This document shows, piece after piece, positions 9,452 through 62,900 of a DNA stretch of 64,000 nt; position 1 is the first letter of the stretch; each line of letters starts with the position of its first letter. The notes below the pieces were generated by a model. It saw only the letters and a program-made list of their open reading frames with translations. It was not told where the DNA came from and did not search any database. Source of the stretch: Shimia sp. Alg240-R146 (GTDB lineage: Bacteria > Pseudomonadota > Alphaproteobacteria > Rhodobacterales > Rhodobacteraceae); assembly GCF_947331465.1 (NCBI RefSeq), contig NZ_CAMZOK010000003.1, positions 248,001 through 312,000 of the forward strand, in the 5' to 3' direction. The position numbers and the translations under genes are program-made.

Positions 9452-9474
9452 GGCAAAAGACCTGTTAAAACATG

Positions 9475-9515: not shown

Positions 9516-9524
9516 TTTTTGCCT

Positions 9525-10741: not shown

Positions 10742-10985
10742 GGCGAGCCCTCCGTTGCGTGACAAGGCTCGGCCGCGTCTCGGCATCACGCTCCACAGCG
10801 TTGATTCCCTGAACAGCATCCAACCGCGCCCGAATGAGCTTCGGATCGTACCAACCCTTCCGGCCAGGCACCGGAGCGATACCGGTCCGACGACAGAAAT
10901 CGTAAAACGACGCGCTCGGTTCTCCAAACCCAAACAACAATGCCAGCTCTGGCGTCGGAATGAGTTGAATTTGGTTTGGGCTCAT
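10728..10985 (-). CDS. Small excisionase-like HTH protein
   Basis: An 85-residue basic protein starting M-S-P-N-Q-I-Q-L-I-P-T-P-E-L-A-L-L-F-G-F. The pattern TPELALLFGFGE, then a second helix FYDFCRRTGI, then a wing GRKGWYDPKLIRARLD matches the MerR-like winged helix of excisionases and recombination directionality factors. It lies between a ribbon-helix-helix gene (4-bp ATGA overlap) and the integrase (14-bp overlap), the right place for a directionality factor. The ATG at 10985 is preferred over an upstream start at 11096, which would run through the neighbouring gene. Confidence 0.65.
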   Translation of the reverse strand: MSPNQIQLIPTPELALLFGFGEPSASFYDFCRRTGIAPVPGRKGWYDPKLIRARLDAVQGINAVERDAETRPSLVTQRRARRAQK

Positions 10986-44097: not shown

Positions 44098-45093
44098 ATG
44101 GCGGCCAGCTACCTGCAAAGCTCGATGGACAAGATCCCCGAGGCGCGTGATCCGAAGCTGATCGAACTTTGCATCAACCCCGACGGCACGCTTTGGGCCG
44201 AGTTTCAGGGAGATCACTTCATGCGGTCCGTCAATCGTCGGCTCTCGCAGAGCGAGATCAAGGACTTGGGCAATCAGATTGCTTCGGCCGCGAATACCAC
44301 GCTCAGCCGGACCAAGCCCATCGTCTCGGTCAGCATCACCTACCGTGACCGCCCGATCCGCGCGCAAGTTATCCAGCCCCCAGCCGTTGATGGCGGTTAC
44401 GCAATCTCACTGCGGTTCTTTGCGGACCTGCCATTCGATCAGATCAAGCTGTCTTACCTCTTCGGCAAAGAGCGCAGCAATGAAGGTGCTCGGCGCAAGC
44501 GCAATGCCGAACTGCGCGATGTCGTCGCTACAGGCGACATCGACGCCGCGCTCAAGTTCTGCGTCACCCACAAGCTCAACATGATCGTCTCTGGCGGCAC
44601 CTCGACCGGAAAAACCGTCACGGCGCGCAAAATCCTCTCTTTCGTGCCCACCGACGAACGTATCATCACGATCGAAGAGGCTGCGGAGCTGCGTCCAGCA
44701 CAGCCCAATGTCGTCACGCTGATGTCTGATCGTGATGAAGCCACACGCAGCGCCGATGTTCTGCTGACCTCGACCTTGCGCATGCGGCCTGACCGGATTG
44801 TCCTGGGCGAAGTGCGCGGCAAAGAGGCCATGACCTTCCTCGAGGCGATTAACACCGGCCATGGTGGCTCACTCACCACGCTACATGCTGAAACGCCGCA
44901 ACTGGCGGTCCAACGCCTCGCAATCGCCGCCCTGAAGACCGACGTGCCTATGACCTACCAGGACATGAACGACTACATCACTCGCTCGATCGATGTGATT
45001 ATCCAAGCCGGTCGCCATGAAGGCGCGCGCGGCATTACCGAATTCTACCTGCCATTTGATCCGGCCCAAACGAAGGAAACAGCCCATGTTTGA
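44098..45093 (+). CDS. virB11: VirB11 ATPase
   Basis: A 331-residue hexameric traffic ATPase. Walker A is VSGGTSTGKTVTARKIL (about residues 163-179), the Asp box is ERIITIEEAAEL, Walker B is DRIVLGEVRGKEAMTFLEA and the His box NTGHGGSLTTLHAE. It switches the channel between pilus building and DNA export. It is normal in length and overlaps the DUF4177 gene by 8 bp. Confidence 0.95.
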   Translation: MAASYLQSSMDKIPEARDPKLIELCINPDGTLWAEFQGDHFMRSVNRRLSQSEIKDLGNQIASAANTTLSRTKPIVSVSITYRDRPIRAQVIQPPAVDGGYAISLRFFADLPFDQIKLSYLFGKERSNEGARRKRNAELRDVVATGDIDAALKFCVTHKLNMIVSGGTSTGKTVTARKILSFVPTDERIITIEEAAELRPAQPNVVTLMSDRDEATRSADVLLTSTLRMRPDRIVLGEVRGKEAMTFLEAINTGHGGSLTTLHAETPQLAVQRLAIAALKTDVPMTYQDMNDYITRSIDVIIQAGRHEGARGITEFYLPFDPAQTKETAHV

Positions 45094-45262
45094 ATACAAG
45101 ATTGAACAGATCAACACCGCCAAGACAAAGCCACCGAAGATCGAGGCGCAGCTGACCGCTCTTGGTCAGGACGGCTGGGAGCTGGTCTCCGTCGTGCCGG
45201 ATTTCGACGGCGAGCATATCCTGAAGGCCTTCCTGAAACGCCGCACCGGTGCGAGCGCCTAA
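45086..45262 (+). CDS. DUF4177-like small protein
   Basis: A 58-residue protein: M-F-E-Y-K-I-E-Q-I then a helix and LTALGQDGWELVSVVPDFDG, which ends with a strand and K-A-F-L-K-R. The G-W-E-L-V motif is characteristic of DUF4177. It is too short to have a catalytic domain. It overlaps virB11 by 8 bp and precedes virB6, so it is part of the operon. Its role in secretion, if any, is unknown. Confidence 0.7.
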   Translation: MFEYKIEQINTAKTKPPKIEAQLTALGQDGWELVSVVPDFDGEHILKAFLKRRTGASA

Positions 45263-45283
45263 AGGCAAACCGAGGAGGATCCC

Positions 45284-46282
45284 ATGGGCGTTGTCACCTG
45301 GATGGTTGAGACAACCGACAGCTTTCTGGACGACGCGGCCCAAACCACCTTTGGCAACGTCGCCGGTCAGCTTGGCGGCGTCATTGCCGTGGCCTCCACG
45401 CTCGCGGTGATCGGCGTCTTTCTCAACATGGTGTTTCAGTACAAATCCATGGACGGGCGGACCGCCTTCTGGTTCGCCCTCAAGCTCATGCTCATCTCTC
45501 TGTTTGCGATGAACTGGGTCCAATTCAACGCCGTGGCCAGCGCCCTGATCGACGGCCTAGACCAGCTCGCGGGCGGCATGGTGGCGGGGCTTGGCGGCGG
45601 CGGTGCGGGTGCATCCTACTTTGCCGGGGCCTTTGACGATCTCATCGAGGAGTTTGGTGACTATCTGAACGCGGCCGGTGACAACATGCATTGGATGGCC
45701 GGTGCCCTCATCGGTGCCATCGGCGCGTTCCTGTTAGGCGTCATCGGCGCGCTCTGCGGCCTTGTCCTGATCTTCGCCAAGATCATGCTGGCCTTCATGA
45801 TCGGCATCGCCCCCGTTATGATCGCGCTGTCGCTGTTCGACGTCAGCAAGGACTACTTCCATCGCTGGCTTTCCAGCACGGTATCCTACGCGCTCTACCC
45901 TCTCGTGATCGCAGGCGTGTTCTCCACTGTCGTCGGCATGTCGCGCTCGCTCATGACCGAGCTCGGAGATCCTTCCGGGGCGAGCAACATCGGCGCGCTG
46001 GTGCCCTTCTTCATGATGATGTTCCTCGCAGGCGGTATGATCATCGCCACCCCGCTGATCGTCCGCTCTATCTCGGGCAATTTCATGATGGTCGGACCGC
46101 CAAGTATTCCGGGTCCAAGCGGGTTCGCCAAAGGTTTGATCGGCACCAAAGGGTCAAGAGCGAGGGCGAGGTTTGGAACCAGGTCGAACGCTGAGATTGC
46201 GGGGGCCGGTATACGGCAGGCGGGCGGAGCTACTGTTTCGATGGTTCAGCGAGTGGCAGAACGAGCGAAACGCTTGGAATAA
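45284..46282 (+). CDS. virB6: VirB6-like polytopic membrane protein
   Basis: A 332-residue inner-membrane protein of the TrbL/VirB6 family with about six hydrophobic segments, including LGGVIAVASTLAVIGVFLNM, GALIGAIGAFLLGVIGALCG and the conserved KIMLAFMIGIAPVMIALSLF. The C-terminal tail is basic. GAGGAGG-type sequence precedes the ATG. In many VirB operons virB6 lies between virB5 and virB8; here it has moved to the end after virB11, and the operon stops after it. Confidence 0.92.
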   Translation: MGVVTWMVETTDSFLDDAAQTTFGNVAGQLGGVIAVASTLAVIGVFLNMVFQYKSMDGRTAFWFALKLMLISLFAMNWVQFNAVASALIDGLDQLAGGMVAGLGGGGAGASYFAGAFDDLIEEFGDYLNAAGDNMHWMAGALIGAIGAFLLGVIGALCGLVLIFAKIMLAFMIGIAPVMIALSLFDVSKDYFHRWLSSTVSYALYPLVIAGVFSTVVGMSRSLMTELGDPSGASNIGALVPFFMMMFLAGGMIIATPLIVRSISGNFMMVGPPSIPGPSGFAKGLIGTKGSRARARFGTRSNAEIAGAGIRQAGGATVSMVQRVAERAKRLE

Positions 46283-46354
46283 GGGGTATGCTCTTTATCC
46301 GACCTTCGCTGTTCGTTCGAACGCCACTCGAAAATTAGGTATCGAAGCCATGCG

Positions 46355-48022
46355 CTACCGGTATTCATCAAACGTGTCCCACCAAGGTACCACCTTGTGC
46401 ATTTCACCTTTGAACGGATACTCCCGATTCACACTACTATTATAGCTTGGTGTCTCTTCGTGGACCATGTCCAGATTCCACCCTGCGTTTGAGTCCCCGT
46501 TCGCTTTCGATAGCAGTTCGGTGAAACTAGCTTTCGTTGCCGTAGAAAGAACCCGCTCGTATTGCTGAATAGGAGCGAAAATAACCTTCCTTTTGTCTAT
46601 GTCCTGAACAAGGCCTTGGCTGAAGGCCAATATCTCGTCGTTGGCTCGGCGGAACACTTCTTCTTTGAGTTTCTCCGCCATGACCAGCCAGTTGTCCAAG
46701 GTAATCACCATACCGACAGCTTCGGGAGCGAGGTTGGCTCCGTGTCTGCCAATTCTACAGTGTGCAAAAAAACGCCATAGCTGTTTTACTGCTTTGACAA
46801 GATCATCAAAGCCGCGTTCCGTAGTCGGGTCTTTGCCAAACATGGCCTCACGCGACATTCGTGTTGCTTTGCATTCGGCGACCAACGTGAGGCGGTCCGC
46901 GTCGAAACAGAGGATGTCTGGTGTGTCAAAGGTCTGCTTCTTAACCCTGTACTTGTCTTCCGGCGTCCAGACGAATTGAGGCAGGGAGGCCATTGAGAAT
47001 TTTAGACAATATTCTTCAAAGCGGCGGCCATACTCTTCCCGGACTGGGCCACCACCAGACACCACGTCATAAAATAGACCGGTCGTCATTCGGTCCATGA
47101 TAAGCTGAGGCAACGGGGCGCGGACTCTCAGAGGTTCATCAGAAAAGCTTACGCAAGGAAATTGGCGAAATATGGATGGCTTGTAGGCCACGTGAATGAT
47201 GCTCTGGCGCTCCCGCATTGCAACCTGCCTTGCTTGCTTCAGTGGCAAGCATAAAGGCTTCAGAGCGGACCGATAAAGCTCTTCTGAAACCCCTATAACT
47301 TTGAGAGCTTGGTCTCCAACCAGAACAGGGTGAGACATGAAACTGGCGAAAAGGCCAAAAGAGACTTTTGAGAATTCGGCGACAGAAATCCCAAACTTCT
47401 TGTTGAATTCCTCTCCGCACTTCCCCTGCCCGTATACGAAGTTGTTCCTGTACAGGTTAGCCGAATTAGCAGACCCTATCTGCCAGGGAAATTGTCTGTT
47501 GCCAATTCGGACGAGCTCTCCAAAAATGTTATTTTTATGCCCCCCTACTTTGAACTCCTTGTTTTCCAGCTTTCGCAGTCGATTGACACAATTCACTATA
47601 TTTCCAAAGTGATCATGCTTGAACCGTACGATCTTGCCCCTCTTCGCATTGGACATTGGCGTGGTCAGCCCCTCATTGGCCAGGGTTTCGAGCTCCCATT
47701 TATGTATGGCTAATTCGTGAGGCCCCTGAATGCCGATTGCCTTTGGGTTGATTGTCTCACGATCTATATGCGGTAGTGCAGACTCATAGTTTGTGGACTG
47801 GAGGATGTTTGTTGCCCAGATTAGGTGGAATAGATCTTCATCCTCGAACCGGGACAAAAGCTTAAGAAGTTCCTTTTTATGGTGAGCATGCATGTGAACT
47901 ACGACGCCAGTCCAGTTGCAAACGAGGGCCGCCGCATTCGCAGCGCAGACCGCGCTTCCTGATGCAGCATATAGGAATTTGGCATGGGTTAGCTTGTCCG
48001 TTCTCTTGGTTTGTGGAACCAA
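46355..48022 (-). CDS. Putative PD-(D/E)xK nuclease, cargo gene between virB and virD4
   Basis: A 555-residue protein I do not recognise. Near residues 375-395 it has TPDILCFDADRLTLVAECKA, the D-x(n)-E-x-K core of PD-(D/E)xK nucleases, with downstream LVKAVKQLWRFFAH as the usual helix. The first 350 residues are helical with no obvious motif and could recognise a target. The start is probably TTG at 48022 but has no clear ribosome-binding site. Unlike its neighbours the region is A+T-richer. Standing alone between two conjugation operons and in between their shared machinery, it looks like acquired cargo, perhaps a one-gene restriction-like defence. Confidence 0.6.
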   Translation of the reverse strand: MVPQTKRTDKLTHAKFLYAASGSAVCAANAAALVCNWTGVVVHMHAHHKKELLKLLSRFEDEDLFHLIWATNILQSTNYESALPHIDRETINPKAIGIQGPHELAIHKWELETLANEGLTTPMSNAKRGKIVRFKHDHFGNIVNCVNRLRKLENKEFKVGGHKNNIFGELVRIGNRQFPWQIGSANSANLYRNNFVYGQGKCGEEFNKKFGISVAEFSKVSFGLFASFMSHPVLVGDQALKVIGVSEELYRSALKPLCLPLKQARQVAMRERQSIIHVAYKPSIFRQFPCVSFSDEPLRVRAPLPQLIMDRMTTGLFYDVVSGGGPVREEYGRRFEEYCLKFSMASLPQFVWTPEDKYRVKKQTFDTPDILCFDADRLTLVAECKATRMSREAMFGKDPTTERGFDDLVKAVKQLWRFFAHCRIGRHGANLAPEAVGMVITLDNWLVMAEKLKEEVFRRANDEILAFSQGLVQDIDKRKVIFAPIQQYERVLSTATKASFTELLSKANGDSNAGWNLDMVHEETPSYNSSVNREYPFKGEMHKVVPWWDTFDEYR

Positions 48023-48193
48023 TTACATATTCAATTTGGAAAAAGTCCTGCCGATCTGGTTCATTATAAAATGTGATGTAATGGAAATTTTGCGTTGGGG
48101 CGAATATGGCACCTAGTCGAGTTTCTTTAAAGCCCGGATCTATGTGCTCTGTTGTCGTTCCTACGCTACGCAGCTAACAGCGGCACCCCGCAT

Positions 48194-50086
48194 TTATCCT
48201 TCAGCGGCCTTTTCCATAAATCGCTCAACTTTTTCTGTTCCAGCCTGATAGTCGCTTAAACTGGATTGATCGCCGGATTGGGCATCTTGCCAGCCAGAGA
48301 CCATTGCATGGACCTCTTCGCGACGTTTACCTCCGCCACTAGTAGCATCATGAGCGGCCTCTCTCGGCACTTCCAATGCCCCAATTTTCGTCTCCAGCGC
48401 CTTGATCTGCCCTTGCAGGCCGCGCATTTGATCCCCTGCTGAAGGATATGGCAAATCACCGGTCTGCTTGTCGAAGATCTGCTGAAAGAACCGGTCCTCA
48501 TAGTATTTTATCCGCCTGGCTCGTACGGGCATTTGCGCGTCGACGACCAGAACAATGTCATCAAGATCCATGCGCCGCGCCTCATCCTCGGGTAGCAACG
48601 CGGTCTCTTCGGTCCGTTCAGACATGCTGCGCCCCGCGAACGGGTTGCGGCCGACCGACCGTGAGCGGGTCACAACGCGCTTGGTGGTTTTGCCAACGGC
48701 TTTGCTGAGCTCCTCAATCGTCTTTTCATCTGAGGGGGTCAGATAGAGCTTGATGCCCGCGTTGCCCTGCAAGGCGCGGCGGGCATTTTCGCCATAGATT
48801 TCATCTAGCGCCGGGATCGTCTGTGTGACGATTGCGAGATTGGCGCGGTAGGATCGCAGGGTTTCGATGCTATCCAGAACGATGGGCATTTTGCCGAGGC
48901 GGTTGAACTCATCGAGCATGATCATCACCGGCCAGGGCTCGTCCTTGCCAGGTTCATGATCCTGGAGCGATGCCAGCAAGTCCGAAAAGAACAAGCGGAT
49001 CAGCGGCGCGAGGGGTTTCACCATGAGTGGTTCAACCACGAGATAGACCGAAAGCGGCGTCTTTCGGATGTCGCGAAAATCGAAGTCTGAAGTTGCTGTT
49101 GCGCGATCGATGGCAGGGTTCGACCATTGCTTGAGGCCAGATGTCATCAAGAGCGACAGATAAGAGGTGAGCGTGTCGTTGTTGGTCGAGGCCATGCGCA
49201 CGAAGATCAGCTTCGCGGCTGGATTGACCACTTCATCGGCGCGGCGGCGATATTCCTTTTGCTTGTCCCCGCCAGACGCGGTGATGCGGTAGATCTCGCC
49301 CAGGGTCGGGCGCGTTCGCTCGAACGCCAAAAGCCCTGCCGCCACGAATAGGTCAATACCGCCATCGAGGAGCCCCTGGACGCGATCGTTTTCGGCTTGA
49401 AGGAACAGCGAAGCCAAGAGCTGCAGCTCCATCTGCTGGCGGTCGACATTTTCGAGCGCCGATATGCGCAGCAAAGGGTTGTACCGGTGCGAGCGGCCAT
49501 CCTTCCAGTCTGTGGGCGCGAACCGGAATACCTTGTCACCCTGCGCGGCCCTGTGGCGGGCAGTTGCCTCAAAGTTCTCGCCCTTCACGTCGAGAACCAC
49601 AGCACTGCCCTGATAGGTTAGCAAGTTCGGAATGACAAAACCCGTCGTCTTGCCGCGTCCGGTCGGGGCCACGATAAGTGCATGGGGGAAGACTTTGGAC
49701 ATGACAAAGGGTTTGCGGCTCTTGGGCTTACCCATCTTGCCAAGAACAAACCCATGGCCTGGCTTGCCAAAAAAGCCGTTCCGTTTCATCTCGGACATGT
49801 GCTGCCAGTGGGTTTCACCGAATTTGGTCAGCGCGTCATTCATCAAGACAGCGCTGAGCAAGACACCGGCACCGGAGCTGATCCCGACAATCAAGTGAAC
49901 AATCTGTATATCACTCGAATGGGTCGTGCGAAGCCCTCCATAACCACGCGCCAGCATCAGAAAATCGATTTCCGCCCCGACCCCGAACCAGCGGAACGTC
50001 AGAAATGCCGACGCTAGAACATACCCGAGCATCGCGCCCAGAAGAGCAAAGCTCATGACGCCGAGTGCGATCCGCGCCTTACCCAT
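48194..50086 (-). CDS. virD4: VirD4/TraG coupling protein
   Basis: A 630-residue type IV coupling ATPase that delivers the relaxosome to the channel. Two N-terminal transmembrane segments (about 8-30 and 62-84) precede Walker A LIVAPTGRGKTTGFVIPNLL (about 140) and AVVLDVKGENFEATARHRA, then Walker B PVMIMLDEFNRLGKMPIV. The C-terminal 100 residues are helical and charged. It overlaps the relaxase gene by 8 bp. Confidence 0.95.
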   Translation of the reverse strand: MGKARIALGVMSFALLGAMLGYVLASAFLTFRWFGVGAEIDFLMLARGYGGLRTTHSSDIQIVHLIVGISSGAGVLLSAVLMNDALTKFGETHWQHMSEMKRNGFFGKPGHGFVLGKMGKPKSRKPFVMSKVFPHALIVAPTGRGKTTGFVIPNLLTYQGSAVVLDVKGENFEATARHRAAQGDKVFRFAPTDWKDGRSHRYNPLLRISALENVDRQQMELQLLASLFLQAENDRVQGLLDGGIDLFVAAGLLAFERTRPTLGEIYRITASGGDKQKEYRRRADEVVNPAAKLIFVRMASTNNDTLTSYLSLLMTSGLKQWSNPAIDRATATSDFDFRDIRKTPLSVYLVVEPLMVKPLAPLIRLFFSDLLASLQDHEPGKDEPWPVMIMLDEFNRLGKMPIVLDSIETLRSYRANLAIVTQTIPALDEIYGENARRALQGNAGIKLYLTPSDEKTIEELSKAVGKTTKRVVTRSRSVGRNPFAGRSMSERTEETALLPEDEARRMDLDDIVLVVDAQMPVRARRIKYYEDRFFQQIFDKQTGDLPYPSAGDQMRGLQGQIKALETKIGALEVPREAAHDATSGGGKRREEVHAMVSGWQDAQSGDQSSLSDYQAGTEKVERFMEKAAEG

Positions 50087-51887
50087 GCGTCACACCCTTT
50101 TCGCCATCGGCATCGACGTGCCTCTCGCGTCGGACGTCTATTTCTTCATTGGCGATTTCGTCGAGGACATGCTCCATCGCAACACTGTTTGCCAGCGCAG
50201 CATCGGTCTGCAGATAGGCCTTGGCCGCATAGAGACGGTCCAGACGATCTTCGATATGTTCGTCCAGCGCCGTCTCATCGCCAATCGCCAAGTCCTGGGT
50301 GCCCTCTTCACCGACCAGTTCCTCCATCTCAGCACGCAAGGTCTCGCGTTCCAGATCGTTTCGGAATGGATCTGTGGTTGGGTCGTCCCTCATACGGCTC
50401 AGGAAATCAGCCGTGGTCGGCGGCAACCCGTCGACTATGGCTTCCTGCCGGTCGGCCTCCACCGCCCCACTGTCCTTGAGAACTTCAGCATCGGCCAACA
50501 AACGACCCAAATCACGGTGCACCTGGTCGAGGCGGTCGATCGCCTTCTCCAGTTCATCGGCGCGTGACAGGTCAAAGCCCTCTTTGTCGGCAATTACCTT
50601 CAGATCCTGTCCAAGCCATTGCCGTTCCAGCGCGGCATTACCTGCGCCAATTTCGACACGACGCGTCACCTCCTGCGCGTCAATGCCGGTGCCTTTCAAA
50701 GCCTGTTCAAGACGTTCGGCGAGCGTTGGATCCCGCAAGGCACCTTGGGCCTCGGCCTGAATGTTCGCGGCCGAATAAATCCCACTCTTGGACGCATCCT
50801 CAAGCAAGGTTTGGGACTGCGTTCCCATTGGGCTGAGATGTGACAGTGAACGATAGATGTCGTTCAGCTCATGCTCGAGCGCTGCACGCCGATCGACCGG
50901 GGCGTCTGCAACAATGCGTTCGGCTTGGTTGATTTTGTCATGAAAGGCATCCACGATCTCATCAAACGAATGCTGTTCTTCGGCCATACCATATACCTTT
51001 CCATCTGCTTCAATCGGTTTGCCCTGCCGCAAAAGCGTCGCCGCCTTATCCAAGGCTGCTGCAATGTCATGCTGGTTCTCACGCGAGGCCTCGGCCGCCA
51101 GTCCGCGATAAAGCCGCGCGTTCTGTGCTACCTCACGCAAGGCATGGTCGAGCTCTGGACCAACGCGCTCGCGCTCGGTCAGTTTTTGGCCCGTGGCTTC
51201 TGCGCGACGTTGGTCAACATCGCTTGGCCTCTTTGTCGTGATCCCGCGCTCGAGCTTTCGCGTCGCCTCAAGGCGCAGCCCATAGCAGTCCGACACCTCA
51301 ACCATCGCCTCCCGAAAACTGTCGTAGTTGAAGTGGTGCCCTTCCTTCAGAAAGAAGAACTCCCCGTCCTTGCTGCGCCGGTTCAGAACAATATGCGCGT
51401 GCGGGTGGTCCCGATCCTCATGCACGGCCGCGATGTAGTCGAAGTGACTGCCTTCGCCCTGAAAGAACCGCTCGCAAATCTCGCGCGTGATCTCGGCGAC
51501 ATCCGCGCCGCGCGTGCCAATCGGGAAGGCCATCAGGAGATGCGAGGTGTGCCCCAGCTTCGGGTGGAACCCCTCATTCCACTGCGCCGAAAACCGGCGC
51601 GTAACCTGCTCGATCTCTTTGGCTGACAGGACGCTTTGGCCGTCATAAGTGCCACGGCTGTCGATGATAAAGCTCGACTTGGTGGTCAGGTATTCCAGCT
51701 GATTGCGCAGCTGCGCTTTGTTGTGTGTGCCGCCGTCCCGGATCGCTTTGAAGATCGCGGGAGAATGCCCCATGGCCGCGCGCGCCATCTGCTTGGCACG
51801 GGCGCGTGGCACACTGCCGCGAATGCGGCTCCAGTCGCGATCAAAGAAGGCCTCCTGCGCGGCGGCAACAGCGCTATTCCGGGCCAT
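50079..51887 (-). CDS. virD2: VirD2-type relaxase (MOBP)
   Basis: A 602-residue relaxase. The N-terminal 250 residues are the nuclease: SFIIDSRGTYDGQSVLSAKE near the nucleophile region and the metal motif AAVHEDRDHPHAHIVLNRRS (H-x-D-x-D-H-x-H-x-H). The rest is helical, acidic in parts, and likely binds the coupling protein. ATG at 51887 with GGGAGG upstream is preferred to a start at 51932. It overlaps the accessory gene by 14 bp and virD4 by 8 bp. It is unrelated to the ColE1-type relaxase at 6538. Confidence 0.93.
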   Translation of the reverse strand: MARNSAVAAAQEAFFDRDWSRIRGSVPRARAKQMARAAMGHSPAIFKAIRDGGTHNKAQLRNQLEYLTTKSSFIIDSRGTYDGQSVLSAKEIEQVTRRFSAQWNEGFHPKLGHTSHLLMAFPIGTRGADVAEITREICERFFQGEGSHFDYIAAVHEDRDHPHAHIVLNRRSKDGEFFFLKEGHHFNYDSFREAMVEVSDCYGLRLEATRKLERGITTKRPSDVDQRRAEATGQKLTERERVGPELDHALREVAQNARLYRGLAAEASRENQHDIAAALDKAATLLRQGKPIEADGKVYGMAEEQHSFDEIVDAFHDKINQAERIVADAPVDRRAALEHELNDIYRSLSHLSPMGTQSQTLLEDASKSGIYSAANIQAEAQGALRDPTLAERLEQALKGTGIDAQEVTRRVEIGAGNAALERQWLGQDLKVIADKEGFDLSRADELEKAIDRLDQVHRDLGRLLADAEVLKDSGAVEADRQEAIVDGLPPTTADFLSRMRDDPTTDPFRNDLERETLRAEMEELVGEEGTQDLAIGDETALDEHIEDRLDRLYAAKAYLQTDAALANSVAMEHVLDEIANEEIDVRRERHVDADGEKGVTHG

Positions 51888-52464
51888 CGGCAATGCCTCC
51901 CAGAACGCGGGCAACCTCGCCGGACAGCGCACTTCGGCGGCGCTGCGCCATGTCCTGAACTTGGTCAGCGATGTCGAAGATCAGCCCGGCCAATGCGCGT
52001 ACTTGGGCATGTGCGGAGTTGCCATAAGGCGGTGTCTTGCCCTGGCGCTTTGCCTCGTTCAGGCGCTGCGCAATCTGGTTGATATTGTTGCCGGTGCGAT
52101 TGAGCGAGGCCGATAGTCCCTGCATTTGGCTCGCCAGTTCATCGTCAGGAACGAAGAGATCGTTTGAGGCATGGATCAGCCGCCGAAGCCCCTCCGCACG
52201 GCTGGTGATTTCGTGCCGCGTCAGCACGGCATCAAAGCTCGCCAGCTCCTTTGGTGTGAGCCGGACATTCACCAGTTCAGAGCGCACGCGCGCATCAAGC
52301 TTGCGGCTTTGATCGGCCTTCAATGTGTAGAAGATGCTGCGGGTCGTGACGCCGAATTCGCGCGCCAGATCCTCGATCGGGACACCTTCGGCACGCTTGC
52401 GTACGATAGCAAAACGCTGGTTTTGCGTCAGTCGCTTGTGCCGTGGTGAGCGCGCTCGGCCCAT
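51874..52464 (-). CDS. MobC-like accessory protein with extra N-terminal HTH
   Basis: A 196-residue relaxosome protein. Residues about 8-50 form a homeodomain-like HTH (TQNQRFAIVRKRAEGVPIED then REFGVTTRSIFYTLKADQ), followed by a ribbon-helix-helix segment (VNVRLTPKELASFDAVLTRH) and the MobC-type NRTGNNINQIAQRLNEAKR. Two DNA-binding parts fit a protein that binds oriT and may also regulate the operon. It is the first gene of the leftward mob operon; an operator lies 74 bp upstream. Confidence 0.85.
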   Translation of the reverse strand: MGRARSPRHKRLTQNQRFAIVRKRAEGVPIEDLAREFGVTTRSIFYTLKADQSRKLDARVRSELVNVRLTPKELASFDAVLTRHEITSRAEGLRRLIHASNDLFVPDDELASQMQGLSASLNRTGNNINQIAQRLNEAKRQGKTPPYGNSAHAQVRALAGLIFDIADQVQDMAQRRRSALSGEVARVLGGIADGPE

Positions 52465-53237: not shown

Positions 53238-53437
53238 CGCAGCGCCTCCTCAAGGATTGCGAGAGCCCCAAGACAATCGTCGATATAGGGCTGCTCTTCG
53301 CCGTCCAGATCGTTCAGCTCCAGTCGGTTCAATACTGCGTAAAGCGTGGCGCGCGCCTCGCGGGCGGCGCTTCGCAAGCTGACCGCATCTTCCAGACGCG
53401 CGGTCCCGAAATCATCGCTGTGATAGTCAGGGGTCAT
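53234..53437 (-). CDS. Small conserved hypothetical of the ardC operon
   Basis: A 67-residue acidic helical protein: M-T-P-D-Y-H-S-D-D-F-G-T-A-R-L-E-D-A, then LRSAAREARATLYAVLNRLE and a final helix LGALAILEEALR. I do not recognise a function. It overlaps ardC by 4 bp at its start and the truncated gene by 4 bp at its end, so the three were one operon. Its acidity fits an anti-restriction or DNA-mimic partner, but that is speculation. Confidence 0.6.
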   Translation of the reverse strand: MTPDYHSDDFGTARLEDAVSLRSAAREARATLYAVLNRLELNDLDGEEQPYIDDCLGALAILEEALR

Positions 53438-54312
53438 GCTGCCACCTCCTTGCTCTGACCTGCTGCTTGCAAAACAAAGTCGGCAGCTTTCTGCGCTTCA
53501 GATGCCGCACGAAAAATCGCCCGTTTGTCCTCTTTGAGCGCTTTCAACCACCCTTCGACATAGGCGGCGCTTTGGTCAAATTCCGGCGCGACGCCGATCT
53601 GAGCCCCAAGGAAACAAGCACCGATTTCTGCCACGAGCTCTTCAAAGGCATAGGCTTCGCGGTTCGCAAATTTCGTGATCCGCTCCAGCCGCGCTTCGCT
53701 GCCAGTCCAATGGATCACTTCGTGGGCCAACGTCCCATAGTAGCCTGCCGCATTGTGAAAGGTGGCAATCGGCGGCATGTGAATGTAATCTTTGGCCGGG
53801 CTGTAATAGGCGCGCGGGTCATCACTGGTGAGGATCTCCGCCCCCGTCCGGCCAAAGAACGCCTCAAGCTCGGGATCTTCCGCCGTGCCAAGATCGCGCG
53901 GTGCTTCGGGCCGGATGTAGTAGTCCTCGGGCAAACCTTCGATCTGATCCGCATTGAAGACGCGGTAGGCGCGCGCATAGGGCAGCTCCTCCTCGATACC
54001 CAATTCGTTATCTCTAGTGAACGTCCCGTATTTGACCACGGTCGACGACGTTTCGCCTTTGCGGACTTGGCCGCCCAGCTCCTGCGCCTGTTTGTAGGTC
54101 ATCCAGCGGCTGGACACATAGCCATGCTTCGCCGCCATGACCCAGAGCATCAGGATGTTAATCCCGCGATACTCTTCACCGTTGTGTCGGGTTGGCAGGG
54201 TAACGCCGGACGCGCTCCCAGTCCACGGCTTGCGCCATGGCGGCGTGCCTGCCTCGATCTCTGCAATAATGGTGTCGGTGACGTGGGCATAAACATCAAA
54301 CTTCGGTGCCAT
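53434..54312 (-). CDS. ardC: ArdC-type antirestriction protein
   Basis: A 292-residue protein. The N-terminal ssDNA-binding (DUF1738) part starts KFDVYAHVTDTIIAEIEAGT and contains the PPWRKPW motif and RGINILMLWVMAAKHGYVSS with RWMTYKQAQELGGQVRKGE. The C-terminal zincin-like part has YYGTLAHEVIHWTGSEARLE (H-E-x-x-H) and a later FEELVAEIGACFLG (third ligand region). ArdC proteins protect incoming plasmid DNA from restriction during conjugation. The promoter must lie in the structured gap to the right. Confidence 0.9.
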   Translation of the reverse strand: MAPKFDVYAHVTDTIIAEIEAGTPPWRKPWTGSASGVTLPTRHNGEEYRGINILMLWVMAAKHGYVSSRWMTYKQAQELGGQVRKGETSSTVVKYGTFTRDNELGIEEELPYARAYRVFNADQIEGLPEDYYIRPEAPRDLGTAEDPELEAFFGRTGAEILTSDDPRAYYSPAKDYIHMPPIATFHNAAGYYGTLAHEVIHWTGSEARLERITKFANREAYAFEELVAEIGACFLGAQIGVAPEFDQSAAYVEGWLKALKEDKRAIFRAASEAQKAADFVLQAAGQSKEVAA

Positions 54313-54815: not shown

Positions 54816-55652
54816 CTAGTCGCGAAGAAAAACAACCGAAGACACGTTTGGCTTCTCAACGAACACCCCATCGGGCTGAAACGCGACAACAAGATCGAGC
54901 AGATTCTCTAAAAGCTCTTTGATGTTGCGCCTGTAGGGCGCGGGATCATCATATACATCCGTGTGAAGTTTCTTCGAAAGCCAACCAAATGAAGCCGACC
55001 CACCATTTTCCTCAACAGAACGTATCAGCCATAAATATGCAGGACTTACTTTGAACTTTTCAATGTCGTTCCACCTAAAACTGTCTGCGGTTGTGTTTTG
55101 AGGGAAGTCGGAACAGTATAAATCCCTTTCTTCAACAAAGATCGATTCAGGCCAGCTAGCGAGAGCGTTACTAGAAACAGTATCCAGCTGCTCGATGAAT
55201 TCCTGCATTGCAATGAGTCGAGCATGATTGATCTCTGTTCCTTGGGACCACAGATTCTCGGCTATTTCTGCATCACGAGCTGTAGGCTTACCTTCCGTGC
55301 TAAGTTCATCATTACAATACCCAACTAGAGCCAAACCTTTACCAGTGAGGTTGGCGCTTCCTACAAACAGTTTTTCGTCAAAAAAATACAATTTCACGTG
55401 CAGCGCAGACGACAACCTAACTTCAAAACCAGCATCAAGAGCACTTCTCAACGCTGCGAGCGAACATGCACCTGTAACAACGTCTCTGAGGTCACAGCGC
55501 ACTAGTAAGCGATCTGAGCTGAACTCACGTCGATGTCCAAGTACAAAATCAATACCGGGTTGAGATACGAAGGCACTGTAAATCCAGCACCTTCGTGAAT
55601 CCGAAAACTGTTGCTTCAATCTACTTTTCAGCTCTGCAGTTGGGAGAAGCAT
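54816..55652 (-). CDS. PLD-type nuclease, restriction-like effector
   Basis: A 278-residue protein of the phospholipase D superfamily. It has one HKD motif, SALHVKLYFFDEKLFVGSAN (H-x-K-x4-D, then G-S-x-N), followed by L-T-G-K-G. One motif per chain suggests a dimer, as in Nuc or BfiI/NgoFVII-type restriction nucleases. The C-terminal half (about 170-278) is helical with a winged-helix-like end, perhaps for DNA or partner binding. It is the last gene of the operon, 1 bp after the GHKL ATPase gene. Confidence 0.75.
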   Translation of the reverse strand: MLLPTAELKSRLKQQFSDSRRCWIYSAFVSQPGIDFVLGHRREFSSDRLLVRCDLRDVVTGACSLAALRSALDAGFEVRLSSALHVKLYFFDEKLFVGSANLTGKGLALVGYCNDELSTEGKPTARDAEIAENLWSQGTEINHARLIAMQEFIEQLDTVSSNALASWPESIFVEERDLYCSDFPQNTTADSFRWNDIEKFKVSPAYLWLIRSVEENGGSASFGWLSKKLHTDVYDDPAPYRRNIKELLENLLDLVVAFQPDGVFVEKPNVSSVVFLRD

Positions 55653-55653
55653 A

Positions 55654-57417
55654 CTATGAGTTGTTCAATTGAGTCAGCAGCTTCTTAATCCAGCCCCCCC
55701 ACTTTTCCCTAAACTCTTCAAGAGTCTCTTGCGATCTATCATCCCACAGCTCGTCTTCAGCTCGCGCAGCAGCCAATAGAAAAAGGTTCATAGCCAAAGC
55801 TTCTTGCGTATCAGGACCTTTGCAAATTTTGTCATACAGCTCCACTTGGAAAGGATGCCGAGCGTTTAGTGCGATCGTCATAATGTCGCCAGGGCGCTCG
55901 ATCGTATAAAACTGGTTCCCAGGCCAGGACTTCTCAGTAATTGTCACTCCCGTCGCCTTGATCTCTTCAACCATCCTGTCAAGTTCATCTTCTGGAATGT
56001 CATTCCCATGTTCTTGAACCAGCATATCCTTAAGCTTTGTGTCCTGTTCTTCCGGAGGTACTGCGTCCTTATCGATCTTTGTCTTTGTTTTTGCTGGATC
56101 ATTTTTAAAGTTTTGACCGGCTAACTCCGCACTCTGTGCGGCCGGATCTGTTTTCCTACCGGAGACACTTCGCCCGGTCTCAGGCGCTAAACTGTCTATA
56201 CGCGCTTTGATTGCCTTGTGGGCACTCTTGAAACGTTTGCTTAATTCTGCTCTGAGAGCGATCTTATGATCAAAGTCTATGTCATCTTCACTGAGGCCTT
56301 CGTGAAGTAGCTCGACTTCTTCCCTTTCAATGAAGTCAACATCGCGCACTGCCTGCTTGTTGTTGGTAACGCCAAATAATTCATCGAGCTCGGGGCCGAA
56401 GCGAATTTCACACCCCCAATAACGCTCCTTTAGTTCTTGCGGATTAAAGTACCCAAAAGACCCAAAATCAATTTCGCGCCCGGCTCTCACAAAAGATATT
56501 CCGGTGTTTGCCTTATAGTGATCTACAACGGATGCTGTATCTGCATCCCTAGTCCACCTAGCAATATCCTGGCGGATCGTGGAGAATCTAACTTCAACAA
56601 TTGATTTCTTGCCGCTATTCCCAAACTGAACTGGGATTTTTTGAATCTCACCGAAAGCTTCATTGGTTGCTTCGTTCTCAAACCCCGGAAGATTGTTTGG
56701 CGTCATCAAGTAAAGGGGATCGTTAGGGAGCAACTTGATATTTTCAACTTCCTGATCATCCGGTTTTACTATCAGAATTCTGATATCTCTTTTCCGCCCA
56801 TAAGTATCATCGTCGTCGAGAAAATGACGGTAGATCCGGCAGAAACTAGCCTCCATGCGCTTAACTAGCGTCTGAGTTCTTTTAAGGTCTAACCTATCAC
56901 AGTCTTCCCATACAATCAGAGAACCATGCTCTTTGACGGAGACGTCGAGGTGCCGCAGGATCTCGCCGGGAACTTCACACTCTTTCACCTCATTGGTCAT
57001 TTGCTGTTTCGACTTTTTGACTTCGTCTATGTCGAGATGAGTGGTAAGACATTTGCCTTCTTGCCATGAGTAGACTGTAACTCGCTTGCACTGACTGATC
57101 GAGGCGAGTGGAAGCCCAACCCCAAAGCGACCTATCCCCGAGCGCGTATTTAGCCTCGTGCCTTGCGCGAACGCCAAGCAAATCTCCAAAACGTCTGAGG
57201 CCATACCATCACCATCGTCATAGACGGCCAACGAGCCTACGTTGGCGACAGTTCTCTGCACACTGACGTTTTCTTCGATGGCGAGAATTCGAACGTTGTC
57301 AGCTTCTGCCTGAATCGAGTTGTCAACGAGTTCCGCCAAAGCCATCGAAGTATCGCGATAACCCGCATCCCGAAACGATTCAATTGCAGTGGATGCAGGG
57401 AAAATGTACGTTGTCAT
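55654..57417 (-). CDS. MORC-like GHKL ATPase
   Basis: A 587-residue ATPase with a Bergerat fold: N box MALAELVDNSIQAEADNVRI (residues about 25-44), G1 box AVYDDGDGMASD (D-x-G-x-G, about 65-76) and G2 box RSGIGRFGVGLPLASISQC (about 92-110). The middle part resembles the transducer domain of MutL/MORC-like proteins; the C-terminal 200 residues are charged and helical. Prokaryotic MORC-type ATPases occur in restriction-like operons with helicases and nucleases, exactly the neighbours here. Its ATG overlaps the helicase stop. Confidence 0.8.
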   Translation of the reverse strand: MTTYIFPASTAIESFRDAGYRDTSMALAELVDNSIQAEADNVRILAIEENVSVQRTVANVGSLAVYDDGDGMASDVLEICLAFAQGTRLNTRSGIGRFGVGLPLASISQCKRVTVYSWQEGKCLTTHLDIDEVKKSKQQMTNEVKECEVPGEILRHLDVSVKEHGSLIVWEDCDRLDLKRTQTLVKRMEASFCRIYRHFLDDDDTYGRKRDIRILIVKPDDQEVENIKLLPNDPLYLMTPNNLPGFENEATNEAFGEIQKIPVQFGNSGKKSIVEVRFSTIRQDIARWTRDADTASVVDHYKANTGISFVRAGREIDFGSFGYFNPQELKERYWGCEIRFGPELDELFGVTNNKQAVRDVDFIEREEVELLHEGLSEDDIDFDHKIALRAELSKRFKSAHKAIKARIDSLAPETGRSVSGRKTDPAAQSAELAGQNFKNDPAKTKTKIDKDAVPPEEQDTKLKDMLVQEHGNDIPEDELDRMVEEIKATGVTITEKSWPGNQFYTIERPGDIMTIALNARHPFQVELYDKICKGPDTQEALAMNLFLLAAARAEDELWDDRSQETLEEFREKWGGWIKKLLTQLNNS

Positions 57418-59018
57418 TGCTGTGTGCTCCAGACATTATTAAAATAGTTGTAGGCCATGTTTTCGGATGGCATTCCGTTCAAGTTGTCCACCACATCGAT
57501 CACTCTCGCGCGTTCATTCCCACCATTTTTTGGCCCCCTAATAGCCCGACCGATCATTTGCGAATAAAGAACGACGGATGCCGTCGGCCTAGTAATGAAA
57601 ACGGTATCGGTATTGGGTGCGTCAAATCCAGTTGTCAAAACTCCATAGTTAATCAGTAGCTGCACTTTGCCATCTTTGTATTCAGCGATGTATCTTGCTC
57701 GATCTTTCGGATCGGTTTGTCCAGTAACCAAGCGGGCAGCTATGTTCCGTGCAACACATAAATCACTTAGCAATTCTGCATGAGCTATAGAGCAAGCGAA
57801 CAAAATGACTTGCCGTTTGGCGTCTGACAGCTCCATCATGCGATTGAAGATCAACAAGTTCCGCTCGTGTTGCCCTCCAAGACGTCTCAAGAAACTCTCT
57901 GGAAGTTCCATGAGCTCTGAGAGCTTGGCCATTTCACTCTCGCTTAGGTCAATTGAGACGTCTGTTTCAATTTTTTCGCGATCAAGACGGGCCAAGACAC
58001 CCATGTCTTGTAGGTAACCGATACCATCCTCCAGCTCTCTACCGCTATCGTCACACAAGCCGATTTTGGTATTGTCGAAAAATTCAGACAACTCTCTGTT
58101 TTCTTCACGGTTTTCGCTGCGACCCGGTGTTGCAGATAGACCAACCAGTTTTGGCGGAGTACTTGCCATGGATAGGGAGTTAATGGCTATTTCATAGGTT
58201 GGCGCAATGGCTTTATGTGCCTCATCGATAACGATCATTTTGGTGGCCGCCGCTATTTCTCTTAGCAGGCCTAAGTCTCTTGATGCAGAGGTTAAAAGGG
58301 CGTGGATTGACTGAAAACTGGCCACCACGAATCCTCTCAGCGGGGCATCCGAAGGTCGTTCAAACCCCCCCCAAATTCTAGTAACAGATGCCTGATGATC
58401 ACCTTTTGTTGACCAGCTTCGTTCAATTGCCTCAACTGCTTGTGTGCAAAGTTCTTCCGAGTGAGCGAGCCATACAATCAAAGCGGGGCCAGGCGGCTCG
58501 GCCCTCAACGCATCAACCATCAGCTCACAGGCCGTTCTAGTTTTTCCCGCGCCAGTTGGCATGTGTAATAGTATTCGGGAACTAGGAAGTTTCAGCGCAG
58601 CAATGGCTCTTGCTTTGACATTATACTGATACTCATGCAGCGGTGCCGAAACGGGAATAGAATTACTTGCCGGAGGGCTCACCTCTGCGACAGGCGGGAG
58701 GAATTCGGGACCCAACTCAAGAGTCTGCACTAGGCGTTGAGCGCTGCTGGAGCTGCTTGACCAAATTACTTTAGAGCTGGTCCCTAAGATGTACTTTCGG
58801 TCGAAGTCATCGACATGGTTCAGCACCATTTTCCTTATCTGGGAGTTTCCAAGTATTGATGAACCGTATCTTTGAAGAAGAATATCAATCAGCTTAGGTG
58901 CGGTTACACGAACACGGAACCACTTCTCCATGTTCTCAAGCGTTTCCATACCCACAAGTTCTGATAGCTTTGCTACACCGAACCTACCAAGCACAGATTT
59001 CAGTTTACCCGTTCCCAA
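57414..59018 (-). CDS. Superfamily II DEAD/DEAH helicase
   Basis: A 534-residue helicase. A helical N-terminus (about 1-125) precedes the motor: I MHMPTGAGKTRTACELMVD-type Walker A (LLHMPTGAGKTRTACEL), II MIVIDEAHKAIAP, III GLSATPGRSENRE, and VI YSQMIGRAIRGPKNGGN with LINYGVLTTGFDAPNTDTV before it. It resembles the R/Res subunit of restriction-like helicases. The start is TTG at 59018 with a perfect GGAGG 9 bp upstream. A 136-bp gap separates it from the PAPS-reductase-like gene; it is coupled to the GHKL gene by ATGA. Confidence 0.88.
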   Translation of the reverse strand: MGTGKLKSVLGRFGVAKLSELVGMETLENMEKWFRVRVTAPKLIDILLQRYGSSILGNSQIRKMVLNHVDDFDRKYILGTSSKVIWSSSSSSAQRLVQTLELGPEFLPPVAEVSPPASNSIPVSAPLHEYQYNVKARAIAALKLPSSRILLHMPTGAGKTRTACELMVDALRAEPPGPALIVWLAHSEELCTQAVEAIERSWSTKGDHQASVTRIWGGFERPSDAPLRGFVVASFQSIHALLTSASRDLGLLREIAAATKMIVIDEAHKAIAPTYEIAINSLSMASTPPKLVGLSATPGRSENREENRELSEFFDNTKIGLCDDSGRELEDGIGYLQDMGVLARLDREKIETDVSIDLSESEMAKLSELMELPESFLRRLGGQHERNLLIFNRMMELSDAKRQVILFACSIAHAELLSDLCVARNIAARLVTGQTDPKDRARYIAEYKDGKVQLLINYGVLTTGFDAPNTDTVFITRPTASVVLYSQMIGRAIRGPKNGGNERARVIDVVDNLNGMPSENMAYNYFNNVWSTQQ

Positions 59019-59154
59019 TTGATTGGTCCTCCAAAATTTTTCGTTCCTGATCGTGCTAGATTTCTCTAGAAGAGACCAGCCCTAGATCTTTGATTTTGGG
59101 TAAATTTTCACCGTTTCCAATTCTGAACCAGTCTCTTTATTTTTTGGAAGCCGC

Positions 59155-59994
59155 TCATTTATGGCAGGCCAAACAAACCTTTTGCTGGCCATAAATTTCA
59201 TCTAGATCAACAGCGCCTTGCTCCGGCCGTAAAGGATCAACCTTTCTCTTCGCCTTAGCCCGTTCGACACGCTTTTCATGATCCGCGCGAATTTGAGCAA
59301 TGCGTTCTGGCTTTTCCAGCTCAAGCAGTGTCTCACCTTCACTCCACGAAAACGGGGATCCGTGATCAAGAGAGGTTTTCTCCATTTGCTTGGCCCTCTC
59401 GAAGGCTTCAGGGTGACGCTCCTTTAGACCAACCCACTCAATCTTTTGCTGAAAGAAACAAAACGTGCAGCCACTTCTGGAACGCCAATCATAGTAAGAT
59501 GGAAGGCCGAGCCCCGAGTTCTCAAGAATTTCAAAAACGCCAGTCTTGTCGATCCCATCATCTTTGAACGGCAGCTTGGTAATCAGACTGCCATTTTTCG
59601 AGTTCAGGCCTTGGCGAAAATCTTCGTCAGCCCGGATCGCGACATAACTATAGACAGTATATCCCTGCTCGGTAAATTCGGATTTGACCCACTTTTCAAA
59701 AGGCTTGATCTTTAGGTCCTTCGTACACCAACGCGTCTGAGCTGACGGAAGGAATTGATTATACTGGGCAAGGTAGAACTTAAAATCTCGCCCCGGATCC
59801 AAGTACCGGATCTTCTTACCAAGGAAACCCTCGAGCATAGCTAAATACTCATAAACCTCGTCTAGTTCTTCGCCAGTGTCAGTGAAGAAATACTCAATAT
59901 CGAGTTCGGGGTGAGCCTGGCTCATATAGATCGCAAGGGCTGAACTATCTTTGCCCCCAGACAAGCCTAGGACATGTTTAACTTTGTCAGCCAT
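59155..59994 (-). CDS. PAPS-reductase/DndC-like PP-loop protein
   Basis: A 279-residue PP-loop ATP pyrophosphatase family protein. It has LGLSGGKDSSALAIYMSQ (residues 10-27), then IEYFFTDTGEELDEVYEYL, QTRWCTKDLKIKPFEKWV and SGCTFCFFQQKIEWVGLKER, and ends C-L-A-C-H-K. The Cys positions (W-C-T, G-C-x-x-C, C-x-x-C) could hold a 4Fe-4S cluster as in DndC, which acts in DNA phosphorothioation; BREX type 4 also has a PAPS-reductase-like protein. A role in sulfur-based DNA marking is therefore plausible. It overlaps the NTPase gene by 8 bp. Confidence 0.8.
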   Translation of the reverse strand: MADKVKHVLGLSGGKDSSALAIYMSQAHPELDIEYFFTDTGEELDEVYEYLAMLEGFLGKKIRYLDPGRDFKFYLAQYNQFLPSAQTRWCTKDLKIKPFEKWVKSEFTEQGYTVYSYVAIRADEDFRQGLNSKNGSLITKLPFKDDGIDKTGVFEILENSGLGLPSYYDWRSRSGCTFCFFQQKIEWVGLKERHPEAFERAKQMEKTSLDHGSPFSWSEGETLLELEKPERIAQIRADHEKRVERAKAKRKVDPLRPEQGAVDLDEIYGQQKVCLACHK

Positions 59995-62900
59995 CTACTT
60001 CCTCACTCGCGTCTGATTGTTTGATCCTCGCTGCCCCGACTTTGGCCAATGCAGCAAGGATTACGTTTCTACCGGTGCCTTCCGCAGCTTGCTGCAACAC
60101 TTCTTCAATCTTCCTACTAAGGTTGTTCACCTGTTCATTGTCGGAGTCCAAAACATCAAATTCCTCCATCACAGGCGTGGGCCGATCATCAACGCTGACA
60201 ATCAACGCCATTGCAGAGCGCTTGTCTTTCCGCCCAGCCACACGCGCTACAGACTCGTGTTGATTGAACTGCTGCGCAAGCAAGGTGAGTTGAACAACTG
60301 CTCGGTCAATGTCGCTATCAATCCATGCTTTGGCGGGTTTGTTGATACCTAGCCCCGCAAGTGCCTCCATCGACTGTAGGTCATCTCCGAAGCTTGTGAG
60401 CTGGGTGATGAAAGATCGAAGCCGCAAGTCACCTGCAACATCTCGGATATTCTTGGCGCGCTCATTCAGCTCTCGGTACGCTTTCGCAGTGCGCCCGTGA
60501 ACTTGTAACTCATTCAGAATGTGTTCGCGCATTCTTGTGAGCATCGCGGGGTAAGCCGCACGGATTTCGATGAGCCCTTCTTTGATGTTTTGAGCGATCT
60601 CAGAGATTCCTTGATCTGTGAGAATGTCGATGTCCTGTCCGTAGAGGCCAGGAATGTCATCAAATGCGAATTTTTGTGGGTCATTAGAACGCTTAAAGAG
60701 CGCTCTGACTTTTTTTGCGTGCTCAGGAAGACGTGCGGTTCGTTGAACCCAAGGTGCTGAAGTCTCGTAAGCTGCGATGAGCGCGCGCCCAACTTCTAGC
60801 GGACTTAAGGTTGAGATTGGTTTGTCTACAACTTCACCGACCGCGTTTGCCAGCTCAGTAAGCAGCCTCTTAGTCGTTCGGTTCATTTCAATCCAGCGCA
60901 GCTGGACCATTTGCGGGGCTCTCAGAACATAGTCCACGTCGACATCCGAAATAGTCGATAGAAAAATACCTTCCCGATAGTGTGACAGGTTCCGGCGTTC
61001 AGCTAGCATGAACAGCACAGCAAGGAATGGCATCAAACCGTCCTTCAACCCAAAAGGAGGTGCCCGCCATAGGTCATAAACATCGGTAAGTTGTACGTTG
61101 CGGTTACCGCGCTCCTTCAAGTAGTCTTTCGTTGCTTTCCAAATGGGCAACAGATTTGCGACATCTTCTCCGGATGGTGGCACAAACTTCCATTCGTTGC
61201 CCTCTTCTAGGTACAATCCATTGGCCTCAACGAGCGATACGAACAGAGCTTTTTCCGCTGGGAACTTCTTAAACCCAAGCCCAGGAATACCTTCTTTAAG
61301 GACGGCAGCATGCAGTAACAGCTTGAGCGCTGAATTGGCCGATGCCGATGGCTTGGTGCGGTTAAGCAGTTCGTTGTTTAGTTTGGGCGACTGCGAAAAC
61401 CGACGGTCTGCCATTTCTGAGGCCAAAACTGTGAGGTTCCGGCGCACGGAAATTGGAAGATCAACAATTCCAGTTTGCCATTCTGCGCTTGCGATTAATT
61501 GCCAGACCTCATGCTCAATCCGGCCTCCAATCGCCTCGATACGATCGTTAAGCTCTCTGCGCGCAATTTTGTCTCGGTGGATCTCAGCATTCGATGCCAA
61601 GATATCCTTCAAAGCGGAGTGCTCTCGTGCAAGTGCCACAAGGTTCTTCGATTTTTCAGACCTTACAACCGCGAAGTCAGCTCCCCACCCATACTCACTA
61701 AAATCCTCAACAATGCTTGGCGTCGCATCGTCCAGTGAAATGATAAATGCGCCAAAGCATCCATTTGTAGGTGCGAAGCTGGTAGCATAGTTTTCTACCT
61801 GGCTTTCAAGCAATACCTTGAGTTCGCACCAGCGCAGAGCACCAGTTTCGCGGTAGTGCCGTTTCGCCACGATATTTGGTGAAGACAACGCGTTTGAGAT
61901 TGAGCTGAGATCGAAGTCTGATCTTTCCCTCAATGCCTCATCGAGCGCCACTTCTATGTCGAAGTCGCTCCCGTCAAAGAGAGAGTAAGTGCCTCTGAAC
62001 TTTCGAAAAACAACAATCGACGCCGCCTCAAGTTCTGACAAAAGCTCCTCTACCGCGGCGCTTGTTTGGTTCATTGAAAGGCGAAGTGCGTCTAGTGTCG
62101 CACCTACCCCAGTTTGCTTTTGCGTCAGCTCTAAAATGGCTAGCGACTTCAGAAGTTGCACACCGATCTCACCGCCATCTTTCGCTTCCCACCGCGCAAT
62201 TGCATCCCTCGCATTTGCAAAGTGGTGGCTGTCCAAAGACACGGCGATTGCAGCTTGCAGATTGAAATCGAGATAATCCCAAAAATCAGCCAATCCGTAG
62301 TCTTTCGGATCGTCTTTGCTCGCCTTCTCAAGGTAGTCCTGAAAGCCAAACAGCTCGGAGGACCCTAAGAAACTGAAGATGCTACGCTGGTTTTGCCCAT
62401 AACTACGTCGAGATGCAGGCCCGAGCACCAATGTAACAAGCGGATTGAGGGGCCAAGCGCTGGTAAGCAACTCTTTCGAAACGGCGGACGCGCCGCGTCG
62501 AGCGTCGGCAAGGAGTTCCACAGCAGCTTCTGCGTTCTGCCTAGCGCTATCCGGCTGATCTGCAGCAATAATCGCCTTGCTAACCAGTTCAATCTGCTCA
62601 TCGCCAGATACGTTGACGGGAATGTCGATGAAGCGACCTTGGATCTTTCCCCACTCATCTTTGATATCGCGTGCCAAGCGGCTCGCATATTCTTGGAATG
62701 ACTGATGAAGGATACCCACAACGATGAGGCGGCCGCCGCTTCTCGAAGCTGCTTCACCAAGTAGTTGGAAAAAATAGGCATCTCCTGATGAGGTTGCGGC
62801 ATGCTCGAGCAGCTTCCCCATTTCATCCAAAAAGAGGACTAACCCTCCAGAGTGTTCACTGTCCTCGGAGGCCAAATACTGCAAGTACTCAATGACCTTT

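Follow-up and report, generated by a model that had tools for sequence, protein, structure and literature searches.

A GapS1-like PD-(D/E)xK nuclease gene, predicted to act against phages, in the variable virB6-virD4 interval of a conjugative element

The locus

The window, i.e. the 64-kb stretch of Shimia sp. Alg240-R146 DNA that was analysed, carries a conjugation backbone in which a single gene lies between virB6 and virD4. The relevant features, in window coordinates, are the following.

45284..46282, plus strand: virB6, the left conserved flank (TrbL/VirB6, 4.6e-33)
46283..48193, no strand: variable cargo interval between the stop codons of virB6 and virD4
46355..47893, minus strand: gene for a GapS1-like PD-(D/E)xK nuclease, probably of 512 aa with the ATG at 47893; the open reading frame reaches a TTG at 48022
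48194..50086, minus strand: virD4 coupling protein, right conserved flank (T4SS-DNA_transf, 1.7e-85)
50079..51932, minus strand: relaxase (VirD2-like), right conserved flank

The original prediction had pointed to an open reading frame at 46355-48022 of the minus strand, and this frame (555 codons open from the TTG) is indeed there, as is the string DILCFDADRLTLVAECK that had been read as its core; the naming of the flanks as virB6 and virD4 is confirmed by the two domain matches given above. The encoded protein is likely to be shorter than the frame, because the alignment of homologues begins at Met44 of the 555-aa frame and the stretch MHAHHKKEL is identical in the homologue of Roseovarius pacificus. 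The start would then be the ATG at 47893, upstream of which no clear ribosome-binding site was seen, and all residue numbers refer to the resulting 512-aa protein.

The gene lies tail to tail with virB6 at a distance of 72 bases, and on its other side 300 bases separate the virD4 stop codon from its start. Differences from the R. pacificus homologue, with which the protein shares 75% identity, are distributed over the codon positions as 105/66/276 across 512 codons, a pattern that argues for selection on the protein and against a chance reading frame. The GC fraction of the gene (0.493) lies below the lowest value for the conjugation backbone (mean 0.591, minimum 0.546 over 274 overlapping segments of the same length), in agreement with the earlier remark that it is richer in A+T than its neighbours. 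Repeats, promoters and terminators were at chance level within 46200-48300, there were no Rfam matches within 45000-49500, and tRNA genes are absent from the 64-kb window.

A predicted PD-(D/E)xK nuclease core

Within the protein the following parts and residues were distinguished, all encoded on the minus strand; counts refer to a set of 29 homologues.

47039..47893: N-terminal helical region, residues 1-285, of which residues 99 onward are common to GapS1
46559..47038: PD-(D/E)xK nuclease core, residues 286-445, ordered helix, strands, helix, strand (AlphaFold2 models, VIA-align)
47015..47017: Glu293, in 27/29 (Gln in 2)
46916..46918: Asp326 of the PD motif, in 29/29
46874..46876: Glu340 of the ExK motif, in 26/29 (Asp in 3)
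46868..46870: Lys342 of the ExK motif, in 29/29
46781..46783: Gln371 on the helix after the ExK strand, in 28/29

The set of 29 includes GapS1-type proteins, three of which score above the GapS1 cut-off (see below), and leaves out L021 (identical to the L020 protein), L037 and duplicates of one gene. A narrower alignment, A1, holds 14 sequences with 16-75% identity to the window protein, leaving out L005 (frameshifted) and L016 (truncated, adjoining IS66); it has 12 invariant columns, among which are Glu293, Asp326, Glu340, Lys342 and Gln371. The protein thereby carries the motif of the PD-(D/E)xK superfamily, i.e. Asp...(Asp/Glu)-x-Lys with a Glu on the first helix.

Structure prediction, proposed at the outset as a check on the fold, points the same way. 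The full-length AlphaFold2 model, built from 5 sequences, has a mean pLDDT of 61.5, with values of mostly 80-93 in the core; it is poor for residues 12-142 and 216-261, so that the N-terminal half is of low confidence. The C-terminal 257 residues modelled alone reach a mean of 70.4 and a pTM of 0.76. The modelled elements follow one another as helix 286-303, strands 308-311, 327-331 and 334-342, helix 362-381 and strand 388-398, and both models contain the alpha-beta-beta-beta-alpha-beta core. Conserved residues and modelled core together support the original prediction of a PD-(D/E)xK nuclease candidate and place the protein in this superfamily; a modelled structure lacking such a core, by which that prediction would have been refuted, was not obtained.

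A comparison of the models with known structures by VIA-align gave the nicking enzyme Nt.BspD6I as best match (Z 10.5 for the full model and 10.8 for the C-terminal domain, the latter over 163 residues at 3.9 A; 6qnz_B), and for the same domain FokI (Z 10.2, 166 residues, 4.0 A; 2fok_B). Both differ from the window protein in that identity is 8-10% and the N-terminal part is unlike. No match to a DNA-recognition domain was found in the window protein, the N-terminal part of which is poorly modelled. Further matches, i.e. HindIII, NucC, Can2, SduA, LmuA and similar, had Z below 8.1, where values under 8 may reflect just a common arrangement. NucC, Can2/Card1, Shedu SduA and Lamassu LmuA thus resemble the protein in fold with a middling Z of 5.4-7.8, and differ from it in other accessory domains and in the lack of a sequence family match. 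Nt.BspD6I, FokI, HindIII, NucC, Can2, SduA and LmuA are all PD-(D/E)xK nucleases. Plain Foldseek searches against PDB and BFVD returned nothing at E<=0.001 (best E 0.003 or worse), and phmmer against the PDB sequences gave chance matches only.

A divergent relative of GapS1

GAPS1 was reportedly named by Mahata et al. 2024. The NCBIfam model NF047931 (antiphage GapS1) matches the window protein over residues 99-464 (E=2.7e-17, 62.8 bits), and it matches all 14 members of A1 as well. Since the curated cut-off of this model is 320 bits, the window protein lies far outside the subfamily proper. At the level of profiles, hhalign aligned A1 with five GapS1-type proteins, three of them above the 320-bit cut-off, across 335 columns covering residues 99-451 (probability 98.8%, E=6e-17); residues 1-98 fall outside this alignment. 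Because the alignment spans residues 99-451, the homology extends past the nuclease core, the feature by which a wide GapS1 superfamily is delimited here, and into the N-terminal part that had at first been left unassigned.

Like GapS1, the window protein is a single protein of about 500 aa with the PD-(D/E)xK motifs at equivalent positions, whereas it differs in its score and in falling into a separate group of the tree (midpoint root); in two of the three GapS1 proteins above the cut-off, moreover, Asp replaces Glu340. In the tree of the 29 sequences those three cluster with L067, L068 and L018, and the window protein with the other 22, the two groups being separated by a starred branch (97/95) in a topology that is midpoint-rooted and has several long branches. 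The combination of a score far below the cut-off with clear profile homology suggests a divergent sister branch of GapS1 and not strict membership. Representatives of this branch come from Roseobacter, from Rhizobium/Sinorhizobium, and from Pseudomonas plasmids and phage-like contigs. The window protein has no match in Pfam, PADLOC or PHROGs, and none of the families in PADLOC-DB 2.0.0 (5027 models) matched it at E<=1.

As the nearest folds are those of restriction and nicking enzymes, the protein could in principle be a stand-alone restriction enzyme (a type II orphan or type IV-like) that acts on a recognised sequence or modification and is without an infection sensor. HSDR_N of Pfam matches weakly in 5 of the 14 A1 members (best E 0.0059), and in R. 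pacificus (L004) a type I restriction-modification set ends, with a restriction subunit, 9 bases upstream of the homologue. The interval is however without a methylase, the PADLOC restriction-enzyme models give no match, and the GapS1 homology continues beyond the nuclease core; we consider such an enzyme quite improbable. Action of the nuclease against phages is the reading favoured here.

In the literature, PMC12774648 places a GAPS1-like protein in a Klebsiella prophage, and PMC12908700 describes a K. pneumoniae GAPS1 as protective against many phages. A mechanism for GAPS1 was not found in the literature searched, which took in few subscription papers.

The interval between virB6 and virD4 within the genus

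VirB6 matches occur at 12 places in 8 of the 25 genus genomes. Besides the window's own, nine regions were compared, leaving out the two weakest VirB6 places (G022:C20 and G002:C3); seven of them (L050-L055 and L057) have both virB6 and virD4 in view, and L056 and L058, in which virD4 falls outside the stretch, were left uncounted. The gapS1-like gene is present in none of the nine and hence in none of the seven with both flanks. Searched as a whole, five of the six genomes behind the seven elements lack a homologue, the exception being G022 with a frameshifted homologue at another place; genomes G005, G010, G011, G014, G024 and G002 have no gapS1-like match anywhere.

The flanks of the six closest elements are well conserved (virB6 83-97% and virD4 85-93% identity), and DNA similarity ends no more than 33 bases from the stop codon of virB6 and 2-192 bases from that of virD4. 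The block from virD4 to mobC, which served as internal control, is collinear across 4.2-4.4 kb in all six. What lies between the flanks measures 1.9-9.6 kb in the seven elements and is different each time:

L050: retron reverse transcriptase (RT_VI, 3.1e-91)
L051: Lamassu LmuA (7.9e-129), LmuB (3.3e-184) and LmuC (3.4e-52)
L052: Gabija GajA (5.7e-211) and GajB (1.5e-172)
L053: PADLOC candidate PDC-S06 (8e-286) with SbcC- and SbcD-like proteins
L054: Druantia DruE (5e-166) with a 1072-aa partner lacking a match
L055: two proteins scanned, neither with a PADLOC match, one with a Hint domain
L057: E1/JAB-like (ubiquitin-like) protein, weak (2.6e-16), with a metallo-beta-lactamase-like protein

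By PADLOC, five of these seven intervals thus have a strong match, one a weak match and one none. The original prediction had assumed that the two conjugation operons normally adjoin, which does not hold: other cargo separates them in all seven close relatives. The comparison that it proposed, with relatives that lack the gene, showed other cargo at the place in each of the seven.

Next to virD4 and with the relaxase near, the gene might also be thought to assist conjugation as a fixed component, for instance in DNA processing or entry exclusion. It is nevertheless missing from the interval in 7/7 close relatives that share the backbone, and its homologues are found in unrelated contexts, which makes such a role very improbable indeed. 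That the gene is a constant part of the conjugation backbone, the second of the two outcomes that the original prediction had named as fatal to it, is refuted by the same absence, and the gene is to be regarded as variable cargo.

An empty virB6-virD4 site was not encountered among the seven intervals, and neither an integrase nor a clear repeat was found at the edges of the window's interval. The simplest route of exchange would therefore be recombination within the conserved flanks. We found no description of this cargo site in the literature searched, and the accessible part of the Sulfitobacter plasmid paper PMC13386836 does not describe it.

Two of the intervals merit a separate remark. 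The Hint-domain protein of L055 and a 262-aa protein without a family match (L055:1993-6480) form a candidate new system, and the 1072-aa protein that precedes the DruE helicase (L054:7037-10255), for which PADLOC gives no match, could be a divergent partner protein of Druantia.

The same interval on more distant plasmids

For the wider plasmid set, 13 regions were hand-picked from the 40 listed of 265 matching records, and seven of them show virD4 or a relaxase. In these seven hand-picked intervals defence genes occur in three (L073 Qat, L075 CBASS and L082 AbiL) and other cargo in four, i.e. mercury genes (L077), a nickel transporter (L078), an aldehyde dehydrogenase with an IS (L083) and metal efflux (L085). 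A defence-only hotspot is accordingly rejected for this wider set, 4/7 intervals being without defence genes, and the metal and metabolic cargo implies that the site by itself is no proof of defence. The interval is a general cargo site, with a bias towards defence seen in raw counts in the window's genus.

Distribution of homologues and their neighbourhoods

Homologues are present in 24 of 72,556 plasmid records (17 with at least 80% query coverage) and at two loci of the genome contig collection. With the own genome included in each case, they occur in 2 of 100 relatives; at the level of the family the A1 profile detects them in 4 of 394 genomes, and at that of the phylum NF047931 does so in 11 of 398, three of the latter over the cut-off and none in the 14 control genomes. 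Among viral contigs the A1 profile found three loci, two of which carry the same gene, and A4 one locus; no relative came up on these contigs when the window protein, L012 or L014 served as query. Such a sparse and patchy spread is as expected of a mobile gene.

Defence genes lie near several homologues: the type I restriction-modification set mentioned above in the case of L004, Gabija in that of L008 and L059, RT_III-A and IetAS in that of L007, and a ThsB1-like TIR protein in that of L012. The neighbourhoods viewed for L006, L014, L018, L063 and L072 have no defence genes. The neighbours tested were picked for their defence-like appearance, so these cases imply no rate or enrichment.

Some Lamassu systems act against plasmids. 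The presence of Lamassu and Gabija at the same site in relatives, the carriage of the gene on a conjugative element and the many plasmid-borne homologues are therefore compatible with a nuclease whose main targets are rival plasmids or conjugative elements on entry, to the benefit of its own element, instead of phages. Its named relative, GapS1, counts as an anti-phage protein, however, and some homologues lie on contigs that are chromosomal or classed as viral, so that we judge a main role against plasmids unlikely.

As to individual homologues, two are decayed, namely the frameshifted L005:7932-9532 of Shimia aestuarii and L016:7962-8564 of Phaeobacter inhibens, truncated near IS66. One genome, G341, has two distant GapS1-like genes (L059 and L060), each near a recombinase-like ORF as judged by its first residues only. 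A homologue with 30.7% identity (L011) lies on pSymA of Sinorhizobium meliloti 1021, a laboratory strain that has been studied in depth.

Proposed function

The window protein is probably a single-protein anti-phage effector of the wide GapS1 superfamily, a triggered nuclease whose gene is exchangeable cargo in the virB6-virD4 interval. The motif and modelled fold, the GapS1 homology, the status as cargo and the selection on the protein are read from sequence and model, and on this footing anti-phage action of the protein can be inferred with good support. The original interpretation of a single-gene nuclease on a conjugative element that could act against phages or rival plasmids is, taken as a whole, supported.

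The N-terminal helical region of about 285 residues would probably sense an infection signal and/or keep the enzyme inactive. A sensor or inhibitory role of this region is favoured because a lone nuclease, without methylase or antitoxin, must stay harmless until triggered. Once triggered, the C-terminal PD-(D/E)xK domain, with Glu293, Asp326, Glu340, Lys342 and Gln371, may cut nucleic acid, either DNA or RNA. This cutting would halt the infection, most simply via abortive infection, as the interval holds no partner methylase or antitoxin that could protect the host.

More tentatively, and with less confidence than in the function of the protein itself, the gap that separates virB6 from virD4 in this alphaproteobacterial T4SS may be a permanent place for the swapping of cargo, filled in the genus mostly by anti-phage systems, and the GapS1-like protein may be the first member to be studied of a large branch, so far without a name, that senses a phage signal other than that of GapS1. 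If so, uncharacterised occupants of the gap, for instance that of L055, would be new defence systems. A single-gene anti-phage family of recent description thereby gains a branch that had no annotation, and one precise place with conserved flanks is indicated at which a widespread group of marine conjugative elements exchanges cargo, much of it defence. This place can be read across many genomes, which could lead to new systems and would allow a direct test of the uptake of anti-phage genes by conjugative elements.

Other genes in the window

A search of the own genome for RepC gave no match, the control being likewise without a match anywhere. At window positions 2201-10933 (minus strand) proteins of 1309 and 522 aa without a Pfam match lie beside an HTH_36 protein and a phage-type integrase. 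An ArdC-type anti-restriction protein (ArdcN 8.1e-39, MPTase-PolyVal 2.4e-47) is encoded at 53434-54312 (minus strand), adjoining relaxase and mobC, and is kept in six of the seven elements with both flanks. Finally, the region 54816-63337 (minus strand) contains SspC (E 0) and SspD (2.3e-127), defence genes of the Ssp type, and after them a ResIII/DEAD helicase, an MzaB-like HATPase and a DrmC-like PLD protein; with this cluster the element that carries the GapS1-like gene bears a further load of defence genes.
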